Below, piece by piece: positions 15,939 to 25,864 of a DNA stretch of 64,000 nt. Under the pieces are notes generated by a model. It saw nothing but the letters and a program-made list of their open reading frames with translations. It did not search any database and was not told the origin of the DNA. The position numbers and the translations under genes are program-made. Source of the DNA: Sphingosinithalassobacter tenebrarum (GTDB taxonomy: Bacteria > Pseudomonadota > Alphaproteobacteria > Sphingomonadales > Sphingomonadaceae); NCBI RefSeq assembly GCF_011057975.1, contig NZ_CP049109.1:2139001-2203000 (forward strand), given 5' to 3'. Numbering within the stretch: the first letter of the stretch is position 1; each line of letters opens with the position of its first letter.

Positions 15939-17342
15939 TCAGCGAAAGCTGTACGGCACCGCCGCGCGCACATCGGGATCGATCTCAATGATCGAAGCCG
16001 CCGGCGGAAACGCGCGCTGGTCGCAATTACGGCGGGGGCAGATGCGGCAGCTCGTGCCGATCGGCGTTGCCGCCTCGTTGCTGCCCAGCGCATCGGCATA
16101 GACGAAGTCGGCGGCGTGCTCCTCCTCGCATCCCAGCGCGACGGCATAGCGACGCGGGGTGCGCGCGAAGCTGCCCGAAGGCTTCACCAGCCCCTTGGCC
16201 ATCGAGACATAGCGCGTCCCGTCGGGCATTTCGGCGCGCTGGACGAGCACGCGGTCGGGGATCGCGACGGCCTCATGCACCACCCAGAGCGGGCAGGCGC
16301 CGCCGAAGCGCGCGAATTGCAGGCGTGTCGCCGAATGGCGCTTGGTGATGTTGCCAGCCATGTCGACGCGGCAGAAGAAGACGGGCAGGCCGACATCGCC
16401 CGGCCGCTGCAGCGTGGAGAGCCGGTGGCATGCCTGTTCGAAACTTACCCCGAAGCGCTGGCGCAGGCGGTCGATATCGTGGCGCACTTCCTGCGCCTGT
16501 GCGCGAAATGCGCCATAAGGCATCAGCATCGCGCCGGCCGCATAGTTGGCGAGGCCGACGCTCAGCAGCTCGCGCGCGGCATCGGTCGCCAGCTCGGCAT
16601 TTTTCGCCACCAGCCGCATTTCGTTGGGCAGCTCCAGCCGCACGAGCAGATTCGCCAGGAGGAATGCGCGGCTTTCGGGCGGAAGGCCGGTGTTGAGCCG
16701 AAATACGCGCGCCTTCTTGTCGAAGCTGCTAAGTCCGGTCGCGTCGCTGTCGTCGCGTTCGACGCGTACCGCGTGCCACAGCCGCAGCCGATCCTCGATC
16801 GCGCGGTCTAGCGGTTCGTTGTCGGCGAGCGTATCGCGCAGCACTTCTGCCGAACGATCGAGCGCGTCGATATAATTGCCCTCGGCCTGAAACCAGTCGC
16901 GCACTTCCTCCCAGGGAAGCTGCGGCCCTTCCGCCGCGCCGCTTTCCACCCGGTCGTCGAGCACGCGGAGCTGCTCCTGGCTGCGGCGATAGGCTTCGTG
17001 GACGGCGATCAGGCGGCGGGCGAGGAGAGGTTGCTGCTCCATCGCGCGCTGCATCGCGTCCTCGTCGAGCCGGTCGCGCGGCACGCTGACGTCGGTCGCC
17101 GCCTCCACCGCGGCGCGCAGCACGGGGAGCTGATCGTCGCTCTCGATATTCTCGAACGGAAATTCGCGTGCGATCGCCAGCAGCACCGGTGGCGTGATCG
17201 GCCGGTCGTTATTTTCGATCTGCGAGAGATAGCTGACCGAGATGCCGAGCCGCTCGGCAAGCGCCGCCTGGGCGATGCCGTGGCGGTTGCGCAGCTCGCG
17301 CAGCTTGTATCCGGCAAAGAGGCGCTGACGGGCGGGTTTCAT
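15939..17342 (-). CDS. pccR: Short-chain fatty acyl-CoA regulator, PccR-like
   Basis: A 467-residue one-component regulator of the ScfR family. The N-terminal XRE helix-turn-helix (residues about 10-65) has [31 protein letters not shown] long middle region resembles IrrE/ImmA-associated domains (about 160-330). A C-terminal cysteine motif is visible, [16 protein letters not shown]. Homologues in Rhodobacter (PccR) and actinobacteria (RamB) sense short-chain acyl-CoAs and control propionyl- or acetyl-CoA genes. It is divergent from pccB, and TTTGCAAA-like boxes lie between the two, supporting autoregulation plus control of the pcc operon. Confidence 0.9.
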
Positions 17343-17356
17343 GCCCGCATTCTATA

Positions 17357-17399
17357 TTTGCAAACCCCCTAACGGCAAGTTTGCAACATTGCAGTTGCA
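17357..17399. promoter_or_regulatory. PccR-type TTTGCAAA operator cluster
   Basis: TTTGCAAA (17357-17364) is followed by TTTGCAA (17380-17386) and two further TTGCA cores at 17389-17393 and 17395-17399. They fill the short region between the pccR start and pccB. PccR of Rhodobacter sphaeroides is described as binding paired TTTGCAAA boxes. The position would control both divergent genes. Confidence 0.7.
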
Positions 17400-17401
17400 T
17401 C

Positions 17402-18931
17402 ATGACAAGAGGATTGAAAGGGAGAACGACCGAATTCAGGAGGTTGGATGCTGGAAATCCTCGAAAAGCTCGAAGCGCGGCGCAACATGGCAAGGGCAAG
17501 CTCACCGCGCGCGAGCGGCTCGACGTGCTGCTCGATCCGGGCTCGTTCGAAGAATATGACATGTATGTCGAGCATAACTGCGTCGATTTCGGCATGCCCG
17601 ATCAGGTGGTGCCCGGCGACGGCGTGGTGACCGGCTCAGGCACGATCAACGGCCGCCTCGTCTTCGTGTTCAGCCAGGACTTCACGGTGTTCGGCGGATC
17701 GCTGTCCGAGCGGCATGCGCAGAAGATCTGCAAGGTCATGGACATGGCGATGAAGGTCGGCGCGCCGGTGATCGGCCTCAACGATTCGGGCGGCGCGCGT
17801 ATTCAGGAAGGCGTCGCGAGCCTTGCCGGCTATGCCGAAGTGTTCCAGCGCAACGTGATGGCCTCCGGCGTGATCCCGCAGCTTTCGCTGATCATGGGCC
17901 CGTGCGCGGGCGGGGCGGTGTACAGCCCGGCGATGACCGACTTCATCTTCATGGTGAAGGATTCGAGCTACATGTTCGTCACCGGGCCCGATGTGGTGAA
18001 GACCGTCACCAACGAAGTGGTGACGCAGGAGGAATTGGGCGGCGCCGTTACCCACACCACCAAATCCTCGGTCGCCGACGTCGCGTTCGAGAACGATATC
18101 GAGGCGCTGCTCGCCGCGCGCGACTTCATCGATTTCCTCCCCGCGTCGAACCGCGAGGAAGTTCCCGAGCGCCCGACCGACGATCCCTGGGACCGCGCCG
18201 AGCAAAGCCTCGACACGCTGATCCCGCCCAACGCAAATCAGCCCTATGACATGCACGAGCTGATTTCGAAGACGCTAGACGACGGCGATTTCTTCGAAGT
18301 GCAGCCGGGCCATGCCGGCAACATCCTCTGCGGCTTCGGCCGGATCGAGGGGCGCACGGTGGGCGTGGTCGCCAACCAGCCGATGGTGCTGGCGGGCGTG
18401 CTCGACATCAACAGCTCGAAAAAGGCCGCGCGGTTCGTGCGCTTCTGCGACGCGTTCGAAATCCCGATCCTGACCTTTGTCGACGTGCCGGGCTTCCTGC
18501 CGGGCGTCGGGCAGGAGCATAACGGCATCATCAAGCATGGCGCGAAACTGCTCTTCGCTTATGCCGAGGCGACCGTTCCCAAGATCACCGTCATCACGCG
18601 CAAGGCCTATGGCGGCGCATACGATGTGATGGCATCGAAGCACCTGCGCGGTGATTTGAACTATGCCTGGCCGACCGCCGAGATCGCGGTGATGGGCGCC
18701 AAGGGCGCGGTCGAGATCATCTTCCGCGGCCGCACGCCGGAGGAAATCGCCGAGAAGACCAAGGAATATGAAGACCGCTTCGCCAACCCCTTCGTGGCGG
18801 CGAGCAAGGGCTTCATCGACGAGGTCATCATGCCGCATTCCACGCGCCGCCGCATCGCGCTGGGGCTCCGCAAGCTGCGCAACAAGCAGCTCGAGAACCC
18901 GTGGAAGAAGCATGATAATATTCCGCTGTGA
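17402..18931 (+). CDS. pccB: Propionyl-CoA carboxylase beta subunit, 5' end frameshifted
   Basis: Carboxyltransferase subunit that moves carboxyl from biotin to propionyl-CoA. From residue about 37 on, the protein is intact: [63 protein letters not shown] terminus WKKHDNIPL. The expected N terminus, [16 protein letters not shown], is encoded from ATG 17448 behind a perfect AGGAGG, but in another frame that ends after 60 codons. The body frame is open back to ATG 17402 (no ribosome binding site, unrelated peptide). The two frames join at AACATGGC (17484-17491), consistent with loss of about 43 nt. Either a real mutation or a sequence error; if real, activity is doubtful. Confidence 0.85.
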
Positions 18932-18940
18932 GACGACCGC

Positions 18941-19378
18941 ATGAAATCCCTCATCATTACATTCGCGGCGATTTCTCTCGCAGCTTGTGGCTCCTCACCG
19001 AGCGGTAGTCCTAACGAGCAGGCTGCTTCGTCGGTCGGTACGACCCTCATTTACGATATCCCGTCCATGGTTGGGATGAGCAAAGAGGCGATCGATGTGC
19101 AATGGGGTGAACCCAATTGCCCGCCAAAGAACTCTTGCGAGTACGGTGACAAGCTGACGGTTTATTTTGTCGAAGGTCGCGCCGCGAACTTCACTTTGCC
19201 TCCGGTTGATGACGTTCGTGCATACGGCTTTTCGGTCGGGGCGCCGAGTTTTGAAAACACCGGTGTAACTCGCTGGAATGTGGATATTGGCGGGCTGGGA
19301 GCTGAGATCAGCTCCTTCGAAGACAACTTCGTGTACGTAAGCACTGTTAACCCATCGGAAGTGCCGACTTCGTGGTAA
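18941..19378 (+). CDS. Small hypothetical lipoprotein inside the pcc operon
   Basis: A 145-residue protein with a lipoprotein signal peptide; the lipobox LAAC puts the lipidated Cys near residue 16. The rest has no recognised domain. A segment SMVGMSKEAIDVQWGEPNCPPKNSCEYG resembles the N-terminal repeat of SmpA/BamE-like lipoproteins, but this is weak. Base composition is visibly less GC-rich than the flanking genes, suggesting later insertion. It lies 9 nt after pccB and 13 nt before mce, so it is co-transcribed. Confidence 0.75.
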   Translation: MKSLIITFAAISLAACGSSPSGSPNEQAASSVGTTLIYDIPSMVGMSKEAIDVQWGEPNCPPKNSCEYGDKLTVYFVEGRAANFTLPPVDDVRAYGFSVGAPSFENTGVTRWNVDIGGLGAEISSFEDNFVYVSTVNPSEVPTSW

Positions 19379-19391
19379 TTGAGGTGAAAAC

Positions 19392-19832
19392 ATGAAACTA
19401 GGCCGTCTCAATCATGTCGGCGTCGCCACGCCGGACCTCGACGCCTCGATCGCGCATTATCGCGATATCATGGGCGCGACCGACATTACCGAGCCGTTCG
19501 TGCTCGACAGCCAGAAGGTGCGCGTCTGCTTCGTCAATACGCCGGGCGAGAACGGTACTGCGGGGACGCAGATCGAGTTGCTCGAACCCACCGATCCCGA
19601 CAGCGCGGTCGGCAAGTGGATCGAGAAGAACCCGCTCGGGGGCCAGCATCATATCTGCTACGAAGTGCCCGACATTCACGAGGCGAAGGCGTGGTTCGAG
19701 AGCAAGGGCAAGCGCGTCCTCGGCGAACCGCGCATCGGCGCGCACGGCACGCTGATCTTCTTCGTCCACCCCAAGGATATGGGCGGGCAGCTGACCGAGA
19801 TCATGGAAACGCCGAAGGATGGGGCGCACTGA
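19392..19832 (+). CDS. mce: Methylmalonyl-CoA epimerase
   Basis: A 146-residue VOC-fold enzyme that interconverts (S)- and (R)-methylmalonyl-CoA. The metal ligands are visible: His in LNHVGVATPDL (near residue 8), His in GGQHHICYEV, and Glu in the C-terminal GGQLTEIMETP. Length is typical. GAGGTG precedes the ATG. It connects propionyl-CoA carboxylase to the mutase encoded downstream. Confidence 0.95.
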   Translation: MKLGRLNHVGVATPDLDASIAHYRDIMGATDITEPFVLDSQKVRVCFVNTPGENGTAGTQIELLEPTDPDSAVGKWIEKNPLGGQHHICYEVPDIHEAKAWFESKGKRVLGEPRIGAHGTLIFFVHPKDMGGQLTEIMETPKDGAH

Positions 19833-20043: not shown

Positions 20044-22185
20044 ATGACCGACAAACCCACGCGCGACGACTGGAAGGCGCTGGCCGACAAGGAAGTGAAG
20101 GGGCGCGACCTCACCTGGCACACGCCGGAGGGGATCGACGTCAATCCGCTCTACACGGCTGACGATACCGAAGGCTGGGACCCGGGCCTGCCGGGCTTCG
20201 CGCCGTACACGCGCGGTGTGAAGGCGTCGATGTATGCCGGGCGCCCCTGGACGATCCGCCAGTACGCCGGTTTCTCGACTGCCGAGGAGTCGAACGCATT
20301 CTATCGCCGCAACCTCGCGGCGGGGCAGAAGGGGCTTTCGGTCGCCTTCGATCTCGCCACCCATCGCGGCTATGACAGCGATCATCCGCGCGTGACGGGC
20401 GATGTCGGCAAGGCGGGCGTCGCGATCGACAGCGTCGAGGACATGAAGATCCTCTTCGATCAGATCCCGCTCGACCAGATGTCGGTTTCGATGACGATGA
20501 ACGGCGCGGTGATCCCGTGCCTCGCTTTCTACATCGTCGCCGCCGAGGAACAGGGCGTTTCGCCGGACCAGCTGACGGGCACCATTCAGAACGACATTCT
20601 GAAGGAGTTCATGGTCCGCAACACCTATATCTATCCGCCGCAGCCGAGCATGCGGATCATTTCGGACATTTTCGCATATACCGCGAACAACATGCCGAAA
20701 TTCAACAGTATTTCGATCTCCGGCTATCATATGCAGGAAGCCGGCGCGACGCAGGTGCAGGAGCTTGCCTTCACCATCGCCGACGGCATCGAATATGTGA
20801 AATACGGCGTTGCTTCGGGCCTCGATATCGACAAGTTCGCGGGGCGCCTGAGCTTCTTCTTCGCGATCGGCATGAACTTCTTCATGGAAGTGTCGAAGCT
20901 GCGCGCCGCGCGCACGCTCTGGTACAATGCGATGACCAAGCTGGGCGCGCAGAGCGATCGTTCGAAGATGCTGCGCACCCACTGCCAGACCTCGGGCGTG
21001 TCGCTGACCGAGCAGGACGTTTACAACAACGTTATCCGCACGACCGTTGAGGCGATGGCCGCGATGCTGGGCGGCACCCAGTCGCTCCACACCAACGCGC
21101 TCGACGAAGCGATTGCGCTGCCGACCGATTTCTCCGCGCGCATCGCCCGCAACACGCAGATCATCCTGCAGGAAGAGACGGGGATGACGAACGTCGTCGA
21201 TCCGCTCGGCGGCTCCTATTATGTCGAGGCGCTGACCAGGGATCTGGTCGACAAGGCGCAAGAAATCATCGACCGCGTCGAGGAAGAAGGCGGCATGGCC
21301 AAGGCGGTTGCCGCCGGCTGGCCCAAGAAGATGATCGAGGAGGCTTCGGCCGCTCGCGCCGCGCGCGTCGACCGCGGCGACGACACGATCGTCGGCGTCA
21401 ACAAATATCGCCCGGAGCAGGACGAGGAAATCGAGATCCTCGACGTCGACAACCACAAGGTCCGCCAGTCGCAGATCGCGCGCATCCAGAAGATGAAGGC
21501 CGAGCGCGACGAGGCGAAGTGCCGGGCCGCGCTCGATGCGCTGCGCGAAGGTGCCAAGGGCGATGGTAACCTGCTCGCGCTCGCCGTCGATGCCGCACGC
21601 GAACGCGCGACGCTGGGCGAGATTTCGTCGGCGATGGAGGACGTGTTCGGCCGTTACGACACCATGCCGACGCCGGTGAAGGGCATCTATGGCGGCGCCT
21701 ATAAGGACGACCGCAAATGGGCTGCGCTGGAGGAAGGCGTCGAGGCCACCGAACGCCGCCTCGGCCGCAAACCGCGGATGATGGTCGCCAAGATGGGGCA
21801 GGACGGGCATGACCGCGGCGCCAATCTGGTCGCCTCGGCATTCGGCGATCTCGGCTTCGACGTCACCGCCGGGCCGCTGTTCCAGACGCCCGAGGAAGCG
21901 CTCAAGCTCGCGCTCGAACGTGATGTCGACGTGATCGGCGCGTCGAGCCTCGCGGCGGGCCACAAGACGCTGATCCCCGAGCTGATCAAGCTGCTCGAGG
22001 ATGCCGGCCGCAGCGATATCAAGGTGATCGCCGGCGGCGTGATCCCGGCCAAGGACTATGATTATCTGCGCGATGCTGGCGTGCAGGCGATCTTCGGACC
22101 GGGCACCAATCTGGTCGAGGCCGCCGAGGAAGTGCTGCGCCTGCTCGGCCACAACATGCCGCCGCTGGATGAGGCTGCGGAGTGA
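20044..22185 (+). CDS. scpA: Methylmalonyl-CoA mutase, adenosylcobalamin-dependent
   Basis: A 713-residue single-chain mutase converting (R)-methylmalonyl-CoA to succinyl-CoA. The substrate-binding TIM barrel occupies about residues 30-540, with the conserved [18 protein letters not shown] and [21 protein letters not shown]. The C-terminal B12-binding domain (about 575-700) has the DGHDRG base-off histidine motif followed by SSLAAGHKT and GGVIP. It resembles homodimeric ScpA/MutB-type enzymes. No MeaB/ArgK chaperone GTPase gene is in the window. It follows the palindromic repeat and precedes bioB. Confidence 0.97.
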
Positions 22186-22203: not shown

Positions 22204-22290
22204 TCACCCCGAACTCGTTTCAGGGGCCACCGTGCAACATGCTCGGTCTTAGCGAATGGAGGAGTGGATGCTGAAACAAGTTCAGCATGA
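22204..22290. repeat. Imperfect inverted repeat spanning the bioB start
   Basis: TCACCCCGAACTCGTTTCAG (22204-22223) is an imperfect inverted copy of CTGAAACAAGTTCAGCATGA (22271-22290). Both arms are typical of dispersed sphingomonad palindromes of the 'gctgaaacaagttcagcatga' type. The right arm encodes the first residues of BioB (MLKQVQHDE), and the ribosome binding site lies between the arms. Confidence 0.7.
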
Positions 22291-23320
22291 TGAAGGTGTT
22301 TACGGTGTCCGTACCGACTGGACCCGCGAGGAAATCGCCGAGCTGTTCAACTTGCCGTTCGGCGAGCTCTTGTTCCGCGCGCAGACCGTGCATCGCGAGC
22401 ATCATGCGCCCGATCAGGTGCAGCTCTGCACGCTGCTGTCGATCAAGACCGGCGGCTGCCCCGAGGATTGCGGCTATTGCTCGCAATCGGCGCATGCCGA
22501 CAGCGGCGTGAAGGCAACCAAGCTGATGGACCCGCGCCAGGTGCTGCAGGCGGCGGCGCAGGCGAAGGATGCCGGGTCGCAGCGCTTCTGCATGGGCGCG
22601 GCGTGGCGCAATCCCAAGGAGCGCGACATGCCCGCGATCGTCGAGATCGTGAAGGGCGTCCGCGCGATGGGGATGGAAACCTGCATGACGCTCGGCATGC
22701 TGACGCCCGACCAGGCGGCGCAGCTCAAGGACGCCGGGCTCGATTATTACAACCACAATATCGACACCTCGCCCGAACGCTATGCCGAGGTGATCACGAC
22801 GCGCACGTTCGAGGAACGGCTCGATACGCTGAGCAATGTCCGCGACGCTGGGATCAACGTCTGCTCGGGCGGGATCGTCGGCATGGGCGAAAGCCGCAGC
22901 GACCGCGTCGGCTTCCTCCATGCGCTCGCGACGCTCGAACGCCATCCCGAAAGCGTGCCGGTCAATGCGCTGGTGCCGGTAAAGGGCACGCCGCTCGGCG
23001 ACATGCTCGCCGATACGCCGCTCGCCAAGATCGACGATATCGAATTCGTCCGCACCGTCGCGGTGGCGCGCATCACCATGCCGATGAGCATGGTGCGCCT
23101 CTCGGCGGGCCGCGAAAGCATGAGCGAGGCGACGCAGGCGCTCTGCTTCATGGCGGGCGCCAATTCGATCTTCACCGGCGACAAGCTGCTGACCGCCGAC
23201 AATGCCGGCGACGATGCCGACGGCGCGCTGTTCGCGAAGCTGGGGATTACGCCGCTGCAGGGCGAGGAACCGCTGCGCGCTGGGTGCGGCTGCGGCGATA
23301 TGGTCGACGCGGCGGAGTGA
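22268..23320 (+). CDS. bioB: Biotin synthase
   Basis: A 350-residue radical-SAM enzyme inserting sulfur into dethiobiotin. The SAM-cluster motif is [13 protein letters not shown] (Cys triad near residues 61-68), followed by the family segments [27 protein letters not shown] and [10 protein letters not shown]. The start at 22268 follows GGAGGAG; ATG 22256 has no ribosome binding site. The first nine residues come from the dispersed repeat. Biotin is the cofactor of PccA encoded downstream, explaining the gene's place in this operon. No other bio genes are present. Confidence 0.95.
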
Positions 23321-23818: not shown

Positions 23819-25864
23819 GTGTTCAAGAAAATCCTGATCGCCAATCGCGGCGAAATCGCATGCCGCGTGATGCGGACCGCCAAGCGGATGGGGATCGCCA
23901 CGGTCGCCGTCTATTCGGACGCCGATGCGCGCGCGCCGCATGTGCTGATGGCCGATGAAGCCGTGCATCTCGGCCCGCCGCCGGCCAGCGAAAGCTATCT
24001 GATCGCCGACAAGATCCTCGAAGCCGCCAAGGCGACCGGCGCGGACTGCATCCATCCCGGATATGGCTTTCTGTCCGAGCGCGAGAGCTTCGCCAGGGCA
24101 TGCGCCGACGCCGGCATCGCTTTTGTCGGCCCGCCGCCCAAGGCCATCGCCGCGATGGGCGACAAGATCGAATCGAAGAAGCTCGCCAAGGAAGCCGGCG
24201 TCAATGTCGTCCCCGGCTTTGTCGGCGAAATCCGCGACACCGATCATGCCGTCGAGATTTCGAACGACATCGGCTATCCGGTGATGATGAAGGCCTCGGC
24301 CGGCGGTGGCGGCAAGGGGATGCGGCTCGCCTGGTCCGAACAGGATGTCCGCGAAGGCTTTGAAGCCACCAAGCGCGAAGGCCTTGCCAGCTTCGGCGAC
24401 GACCGCGTCTTCATCGAGAAGTTCATCGAAAGCCCGCGCCATATCGAGATCCAGGTGCTCGGCGACCAGCACGGCAATGTCCTGTATCTGGGTGAGCGCG
24501 AATGCTCGATCCAGCGCCGCCACCAGAAGGTGGTCGAGGAAGCCCCGTCGCCCTTCGTCGACGAAGCGATGCGCAAGAAGATGGGCGAACAGGCCGTCGC
24601 GCTGTCCAAGGCGGTGGGCTATTTCAGCGCGGGCACGGTCGAGCTGATCGTATCGGGCGCCGACAAGACCGGCGAGAGCTTCTACTTCCTCGAAATGAAC
24701 ACCCGGCTTCAGGTGGAGCATCCGGTCACCGAATGCATCACCGGGCTCGATCTGGTCGAACAGATGATCCGTGTCGCGGCGGGCGAGAAGCTCGCTTTCG
24801 GTCAGGACGATGTGAAGCTCAACGGCTGGGCGATCGAGAACCGTGTCTATGCCGAGGACCCCTATCGCGGCTTCCTGCCCTCGACCGGGCGCCTCGTCCG
24901 CTATCAGCCGCCCGCCGCGACCGAGACCGATTATTCGCATCCGTTCGAAGCGACGCCCGACCAGAAGGGTTATATCCGCGTCGATGACGGCGTCACCGAA
25001 GGTGGCGAAGTTTCGATGTTCTACGATCCGATGATCGCCAAGCTCGTCACCTGGGCGCCGACGCGGGACGAAGCCGCCGATCTTCAGATCGCGGCGCTCG
25101 ACCGCTTTCGGATCGAAGGGGGCGGCAACAATATCGATTTCGTTTCGGCGATCATGCAGCATCAGCGCTTCCGCGACGGTGCGCTGACCACTGGCTTCAT
25201 CGCCGAGGAATATCCCGAGGGCTTTCAGGGCGCCGCGACTTCGCCCGAACTGCTGCGCAAGCTGGCGGCAGTGGCGATGGTGGTCGATCTGGCGCAGGCG
25301 CAGCGCGCCGCGTCGATCTCCGGCCAGCTTGCCGAAGGTTCGGTCAAGCTCTCGCCCGAGCGCGTCGTGCTGATCGACGGTGAGCGTTTCGAGCTGTCGC
25401 TGGTGGGCAGCGACGGTGGTTTGCTGATCGAACATGGCGGCGACCAGCCGTACGACATTGTCGGTAACTGGCACCCCGGCCAGCCGCTCTTCGCCGCGAC
25501 GATCGACAATGAACCGCTTTCGGTGGGGATCAAGCCGGTGCGCGCGGGGTGGAGGTTGACCGCGCACGGCGCGAGCCATGTCGCCAGGGTCTACAGCCCG
25601 CGCATCGCCGAGCTTTCCGAGCATATGATCGAAAAGATCCCGCCGGACATGAGCAAGTTCCTGCTCTGCCCGATGCCGGGTCTGCTGACGGCGCTGCATG
25701 TTGAAGTCGGCGACAAGGTGGAGGCGGGGCAGCCGCTTGCGGTGGTCGAGGCGATGAAGATGGAAAATATCCTGCGCGCCGAGAAGTCCGCGGTGGTGAA
25801 GGCTGCCAATTTCGCGCCGGGCGACAGCCTCGCGGTCGACGCGGCGATCCTCGAATTCGAGTGA
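23819..25864 (+). CDS. pccA: Propionyl-CoA carboxylase alpha subunit (biotin carboxylase + BCCP)
   Basis: A 681-residue subunit that carboxylates its own biotin using ATP and bicarbonate. The biotin carboxylase domain (about 1-450) starts FKKILIANRGEIACRV and contains the ATP-grasp KASAGGGGKGMR and the EMNTRLQVEHPVTE active-site segment. A BT-type linker follows. The biotinyl domain at the C terminus has VVEAMKMENIL with the biotinylated Lys about 30 residues from the end. The start is GTG behind AGGAGG. It is separated from pccB by five genes but in the same operon direction, and it overlaps the next gene by GTGA. Confidence 0.97.
   Translation: MFKKILIANRGEIACRVMRTAKRMGIATVAVYSDADARAPHVLMADEAVHLGPPPASESYLIADKILEAAKATGADCIHPGYGFLSERESFARACADAGIAFVGPPPKAIAAMGDKIESKKLAKEAGVNVVPGFVGEIRDTDHAVEISNDIGYPVMMKASAGGGGKGMRLAWSEQDVREGFEATKREGLASFGDDRVFIEKFIESPRHIEIQVLGDQHGNVLYLGERECSIQRRHQKVVEEAPSPFVDEAMRKKMGEQAVALSKAVGYFSAGTVELIVSGADKTGESFYFLEMNTRLQVEHPVTECITGLDLVEQMIRVAAGEKLAFGQDDVKLNGWAIENRVYAEDPYRGFLPSTGRLVRYQPPAATETDYSHPFEATPDQKGYIRVDDGVTEGGEVSMFYDPMIAKLVTWAPTRDEAADLQIAALDRFRIEGGGNNIDFVSAIMQHQRFRDGALTTGFIAEEYPEGFQGAATSPELLRKLAAVAMVVDLAQAQRAASISGQLAEGSVKLSPERVVLIDGERFELSLVGSDGGLLIEHGGDQPYDIVGNWHPGQPLFAATIDNEPLSVGIKPVRAGWRLTAHGASHVARVYSPRIAELSEHMIEKIPPDMSKFLLCPMPGLLTALHVEVGDKVEAGQPLAVVEAMKMENILRAEKSAVVKAANFAPGDSLAVDAAILEFE

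Follow-up and report, generated by a model that had tools for sequence, protein, structure and literature searches.

A probable recent 43-nt frameshifting deletion in the pccB gene of Sphingosinithalassobacter tenebrarum

Intact PccB is represented by the structures 3n6r and 6ybp, with which the intact 508 aa PccB of a relative (G011) can be aligned over residues 1-508. We have analyzed a pccB locus in a window of 64,000 nucleotides from Sphingosinithalassobacter tenebrarum (positions 2,139,001 to 2,203,000 of contig NZ_CP049109.1); the window is the whole of this stretch, and coordinates refer to it and to its + strand unless stated otherwise. The downstream frame of the window gene aligns to PccB through its end. 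It differs from the intact protein in that the N terminus lies in another frame, and a 14-residue block that includes the sequence GGG is missing. A second comparison is with pseudogenes formed by slipped-strand deletion. As in these, a short stretch has been lost, a repeat is found in register (in the relative G253) and the rest of the gene is undecayed, but here the junction does not fall exactly at the G253 repeat. The lesion is of an ordinary pseudogene type, although a clean one. No treatment of it is apparent in the titles and abstracts of the papers listed on propionyl-CoA carboxylase and pccB in Sphingomonas and on the structure of the beta subunit. We consider it probable that the deletion is real and recent, and that it most likely leaves the organism with little or no propionyl-CoA carboxylase.

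Reading frames at pccB and comparison with relatives

The ribosome binding site of pccB is an AGGAGG at 17438..17443, located 4 nt from ATG 17448 and giving a duplex of −11.0 kcal/mol for that start. The frame beginning at this ATG (17448..17630) is the original start of the gene. It opens with the normal PccB N terminus but then stops after 60 codons, at TGA 17628-17630. The remaining PccB coding frame (17483..18931) runs from CAA 17483 to the stop at 18931, one base back (−1) from the ATG 17448 frame. It has no internal stop, and matches PF01039 with 658.4 bits over profile positions 2-493, so that the domain is present over its length. What is absent is the N-terminal GGG...R block in frame with the domain behind the ribosome binding site, as expected of a functional PccB. 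These three features, i.e. a normal start behind AGGAGG, termination after 60 codons and the remainder of PccB in a different frame, had been described in a preliminary description of this DNA, and all are confirmed. A simple promoter scan of the + strand over 17250-17600 gave no site, and RNA folding of 17400-17520 gave z = −2.2.

The frame is broken relative to intact orthologues, as in a recent pseudogene. The preliminary description attributed this to a deletion of about 43 nt, and suggested a comparison with the 5' ends of pccB in close relatives. We found 43 extra bases in G011, G253 and G181. A blastn alignment of 17353-17700 with G011 contains 43 gap columns, drawn as 26 + 17 and all at the frame break, with 1620 subject bases aligned against 1577 query bases. 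A four-way alignment places them in a single gap of 43 in the window, at which G011, G253 and G181 all have bases. G011 and G253 thus carry exactly 43 more bases together with an intact gene, and in G253 PccB is encoded in one open frame from the same start. The deletion junction can be placed within 17475..17484, most likely next to 17483.

The difference is equally clear at the level of the protein. About 14 residues had been said to lie normally between the two parts of PccB, and this is borne out. The 14-residue block preceding Gln-His is present in frame at each of 122 distinct loci, a set that left out two loci cut by contig ends, loci with <70% identity and the window's own copies. When later-fetched loci were added, the block was in frame, with an in-frame start codon upstream, in 128 of 128 usable loci. 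Glycines 6, 7 and 8 of the block (the GGG sequence) and arginine 11 are invariant in all 128. This larger set left out 27 loci: four of the window itself, 15 with <70% identity and eight others. Of the last, L105, L114 and L159 are cut at a contig end, L187 (G282), L188 (G121), L189 (G243) and L164 (G162) have the anchor behind a later break, and L191 (G260) comprises just the second half of a split gene. L187, L188 and L189 do contain the 5' part of pccB, which there has a frame of its own and begins at residue 1 or 7. The named loci with the closest PccB are mostly from Sphingomonas and other sphingomonads (80 loci kept).

A protein search of the genus covering 295 genomes, including the window genome, gave the same picture. 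Among the 150 matches listed, 149 begin at PccB residue 1-6, and the window genome alone begins at residue 20. The genome set holds one genome per species. No other strains of the species were found, the best identity being 91% among the at least 120 matches listed in a protein search that reports clusters.

Neighboring genes and the state of the remaining gene

The genes around pccB are whole. An intact, divergent gene of 467 codons (15939..17342, − strand) encodes an ScfR-type (RamB/PccR-like) regulator, for which the gene order suggests the name PccR. It matches NCBIfam NF038139 (RamB) with 400.7 bits, below the cut-off of 700, and has a single full-length match in each of G011, G253 and G181. 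Two TTTGCAA elements (17357-17363 and 17380-17386) that resemble ScfR operators stand in the interval separating the regulator gene from pccB. They are identical in G011 and G253, and changed in G181. A pattern search for paired TTTGCAA elements up to 14 nt apart gave nothing, because the two stand 16 nt apart. PMC6765138 gives TTTGCAAA as a site of the related PrpR.

Downstream there follow an intact methylmalonyl-CoA epimerase gene (19392..19832; TIGR03081 above cut-off), the methylmalonyl-CoA mutase gene mcm (20044..22185; NF006944 above cut-off, full length in G011 and G253), the biotin synthase gene bioB (22256..23320; TIGR00433 above cut-off) and the gene for the alpha chain of propionyl-CoA carboxylase (23819..25864). 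The last matches biotin carboxylase families and is probably pccA, a name that rests on its family and its place. The epimerase matches its G011 counterpart over residues 1-143 of 146, and the regulator, mutase, bioB and pccA each give a one-frame, full-length match to the corresponding G011 gene. The earlier statement that the rest of the operon is intact agrees with what we find for the epimerase, mutase, bioB and pccA on comparison with relatives. A 145-codon lipoprotein-like ORF (18941-19378) lies between pccB and the epimerase gene; it has no match in the fetched neighborhoods of five relatives and no NCBIfam family. In G253 (L150, 13148-13354, reverse complement) there is a second mcm match, to residues 646-713, behind the full-length mcm.

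The remaining PccB shows no sign of decay, having no residue that is unseen in 121 distinct homologous segments. We tried relaxed selection as a clock for the lesion, and rejected it for want of power. The window pccB has 5 private codon changes that alter the amino acid and 26 that are silent, compared with 2 and 52 in G011 and G253 together (Fisher p = 0.09). The corresponding figures for mcm are 4 and 26 in the window and 1 and 51 in the two relatives (p = 0.06). The same trend is seen in mcm, and it is therefore not specific to pccB. Given the undecayed body of PccB and the intact neighbors, the lesion is probably recent. Either the lesion would be young, or the PccB protein would still be in use.

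Probable origin of the deletion, rival explanations and predicted metabolic consequence

It had been proposed that the deletion occurred between two copies of AACATGGC, and this is not supported. Such a repeat would need Asn-Met-Ala at the left-hand position, yet this is encoded there in 0 of the 122 loci; AAA is found in 56 and EAA in 34, with the others scattered. G011, G253 and G181 all encode Glu-Ala-Ala. An ancestral left-hand copy of AACATGGC is therefore unlikely, and we have rejected it as the ancestral repeat.

A different repeat is found in G253, where CGGCAAGGGCA (11 nt) is present twice, exactly 43 nt apart. On matching the G253 sequence to itself, an offset of 43 gave the longest match (11 nt) of the 40 offsets tried (20-59); in G011 and G181 it is not the best repeat offset. 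The window has a single copy of GGCAAGGGCA (17489..17498). G253 has two copies of this word at a spacing of 43 nt, and the match grows to 11 nt if the C before it is counted. The five bases before the window copy, AACAT, match the right-hand flank (Gln-His), and the junction should therefore lie upstream of GGCAAGGGCA, next to 17483. It follows that simple slippage at the CGGCAAGGGCA repeat alone does not give the junction. At the position next to 17483 G253 offers just 1 nt of identity. Six of the 122 loci have GCGGCGC as the last bases before Gln, and if the ancestor had this sequence it would give 7 or 8 nt of identity at the junction. Imperfect direct repeats with a spacing of 43 nt, of which CGGCAAGGGCA is the best part, probably gave rise to the deletion through slipped mispairing, but the exact path can only be surmised.

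Might the lesion be real and PccB still be made, in sufficiently active form, from another start? The PccB frame is open upstream as far as 17237, and the undecayed body of the protein could mean that it is still made and used. TTG 17444 (495 aa) is the sole in-frame start at the strong AGGAGG, but it adjoins it with zero spacing. ATG 17402 (509 aa) is present in the window genome and missing at the aligned place in G011 and G253, but it has no Shine-Dalgarno pairing (+0.9). Rescue from this ATG (17402-17404) is conceivable but improbable. At TTG 17414 the pairing is of moderate strength (−5.8 kcal/mol) and seems to adjoin the codon itself. GTG 17624 is next to the TGA that ends the short frame; its value is −6.7, and its product would be about 70 residues short. 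The products of all four starts are without the block whose GGG and one Arg are invariant in the 128 loci. Rescue by TTG 17444, ATG 17402 or TTG 17414 is unlikely in our judgment. The preliminary description had considered that the lesion would either disable PccB or force the use of a start without a ribosome binding site. The second part is broadly right; TTG 17444 touches AGGAGG. A programmed −1 frameshift joining the two frames would be consistent with both being open from 17448 to 17630 and differing by −1. Yet over this interval the ATG frame contains no heptamer of the form X XXY YYZ, and the two-frame arrangement occurs in none of the 128 usable loci, so that we regard such frameshifting as exceedingly improbable.

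If the break were an error of sequencing or assembly, pccB would be intact in the organism. Genomes in the set do contain breaks that point this way: in G018, and likewise in G243, two frames of a single contig share atpA, a gene that should be intact, and two carboxylase genes of G162 show several breaks. In the window genome, however, 43 nt are missing at one point, the assembly is a single contig of 3,859,475 bases and the neighboring genes are full length, which is an unusual form for an error. Nor is there a long exact repeat that could have collapsed; ordinary assembly does not collapse exact repeats as short as 11 nt. We judge an error to be distinctly unlikely, and take the assembled DNA as probably correct.

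A real deletion would mean that, near the 5' end of pccB, 14 conserved residues have lost their codons and one further base is gone, with a shift of frame as the result. Initiation at ATG 17448 would then give a peptide of 60 residues that follows PccB for no more than its first dozen or so, and PccB made from any other start would be without the conserved GGG...R block. The predicted outcome is little or no propionyl-CoA carboxylase in a strain whose regulator, operator-like site and remaining methylmalonyl-CoA pathway are intact.

We searched the window genome for a backup, either a second PccB or PrpB and PrpD, and found none at cut-off. PF01039 has four matches: PccB, an MccB-like protein that is 35% identical to PccB, and two partial matches, which from the region of the profile that they cover we take to be the subunits of acetyl-CoA carboxylase. 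A second close PccB was not found in this search, and the pccB of this locus appears to be the only clear copy in the genome. The scores for PrpD (103.9 bits; cut-off, 458) and PrpB (64.2; cut-off, 354.4) both fall far short, so that no methylcitrate route is evident from these two models. As neither a further close PccB nor a PrpB or PrpD reaching cut-off was found, propionyl-CoA carboxylase is likely to have been lost, in agreement with the suggestion that PccB would be disabled. Loss of propionyl-CoA assimilation would be likely to follow unless rescue occurs. If this is correct, a natural mutant in propionyl-CoA carboxylase has been sequenced, one that retains the regulator and downstream pathway. 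From general knowledge of the pathway it would be expected to grow poorly on propionate, odd-chain fatty acids, valine and isoleucine, and genome-based predictions that score pccB as present would be wrong.

Other broken pccB genes in the genus

We made a second search of 25 genomes whose best PccB score in the genus search was weaker than about 1e-240. In seven of these (G005, G081, G121, G165, G243, G260 and G282) pccB is broken in other ways. In G005 (L184) an 11-nt tandem duplication shifts the frame near codon 350. The G081 gene (L186) is without codons 256-478 (about 670 nt) and has a frameshift at the junction. In G260 (L190/L191) the two halves of pccB lie about 41 kb apart on opposite strands, in an insertion-sequence-like split. 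Read by eye, the ends of the two halves resemble the terminus of an insertion sequence, GGCACCGTCAA / TTGACGGTGCC, and GCCGTATG is present at both junctions, as after an insertion plus an inversion. The remaining four (G121, G165, G243 and G282) have indels of one or so bases. G084 and G251 (contig ends) and G162 (80% complete, with several breaks) were not counted as broken. The other 15 of the 25 genomes have no close PccB, and five of these 15 are <90% complete.

The search was extended to mcm and pccA in 22 genomes. Near full-length matches to both were found in G005, G081 and G165, on the same contig as pccB in G005 and G081. In G121 they lie on a different contig from pccB. The mcm match is divided in two within a single open frame in both G121 and G260. 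Residues 1-376 are covered by the best pccA match in G260 and by the pccA match in G282. Neither gene was found in G243. Nine of the 22 genomes gave no mcm match: G243, and eight of the ten without a close PccB that were tested. PrpD at or above cut-off was found in none of the 22. These lesions are like that of the window in that pccB is broken with mcm and pccA still whole in G005, G081 and G165, but they differ from it in site and kind.

Four of the lesions (window, G005, G081 and G260) are structural and cannot be explained by a single-base error. pccA and mcm are whole in three of these four cases, and PrpD is below cut-off in all. With at least four independent structural lesions, pccB might be a recurrent weak point of the genus, with its loss repeatedly tolerated or favored, but we find this doubtful and offer it tentatively. 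We compared pccB with atpA in 264 genomes with a completeness of ≥90% and a contamination of ≤5%, selecting low best scores and then looking at the pieces. This procedure misses lesions near the gene ends of both genes, including that of the window itself. Breaks within a contig or by rearrangement were found for pccB in 7 of 264 and for atpA in 2 of 264 (G018 and G243; Fisher p = 0.18). Adding the window lesion gives 8 against 2 (p = 0.11). The control gene is also broken in two genomes, and an excess of broken pccB in the genus over atpA is therefore not shown among these 264. Low atpA scores in G006, G106, G176, G251 and G275 (contig ends), G161 (two contigs) and G193 (no atpA found) were not counted. 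If the window lesion is real, it would form with the other broken copies a small natural series on when the pathway is dispensable.

In G018 (L214) the split of atpA between two frames lies inside one contig of 3.8 Mb. This gene should be needed, and the split is therefore most likely a sequencing error.

Seven genomes (L163 and L165-L170, corresponding to G220, G226, G189, G283, G001, G277 and G173) have neither a close PccB nor mcm. They contain a different carboxylase that is 41-49% identical to PccB, located near a PccA-like protein of 61-66% identity.
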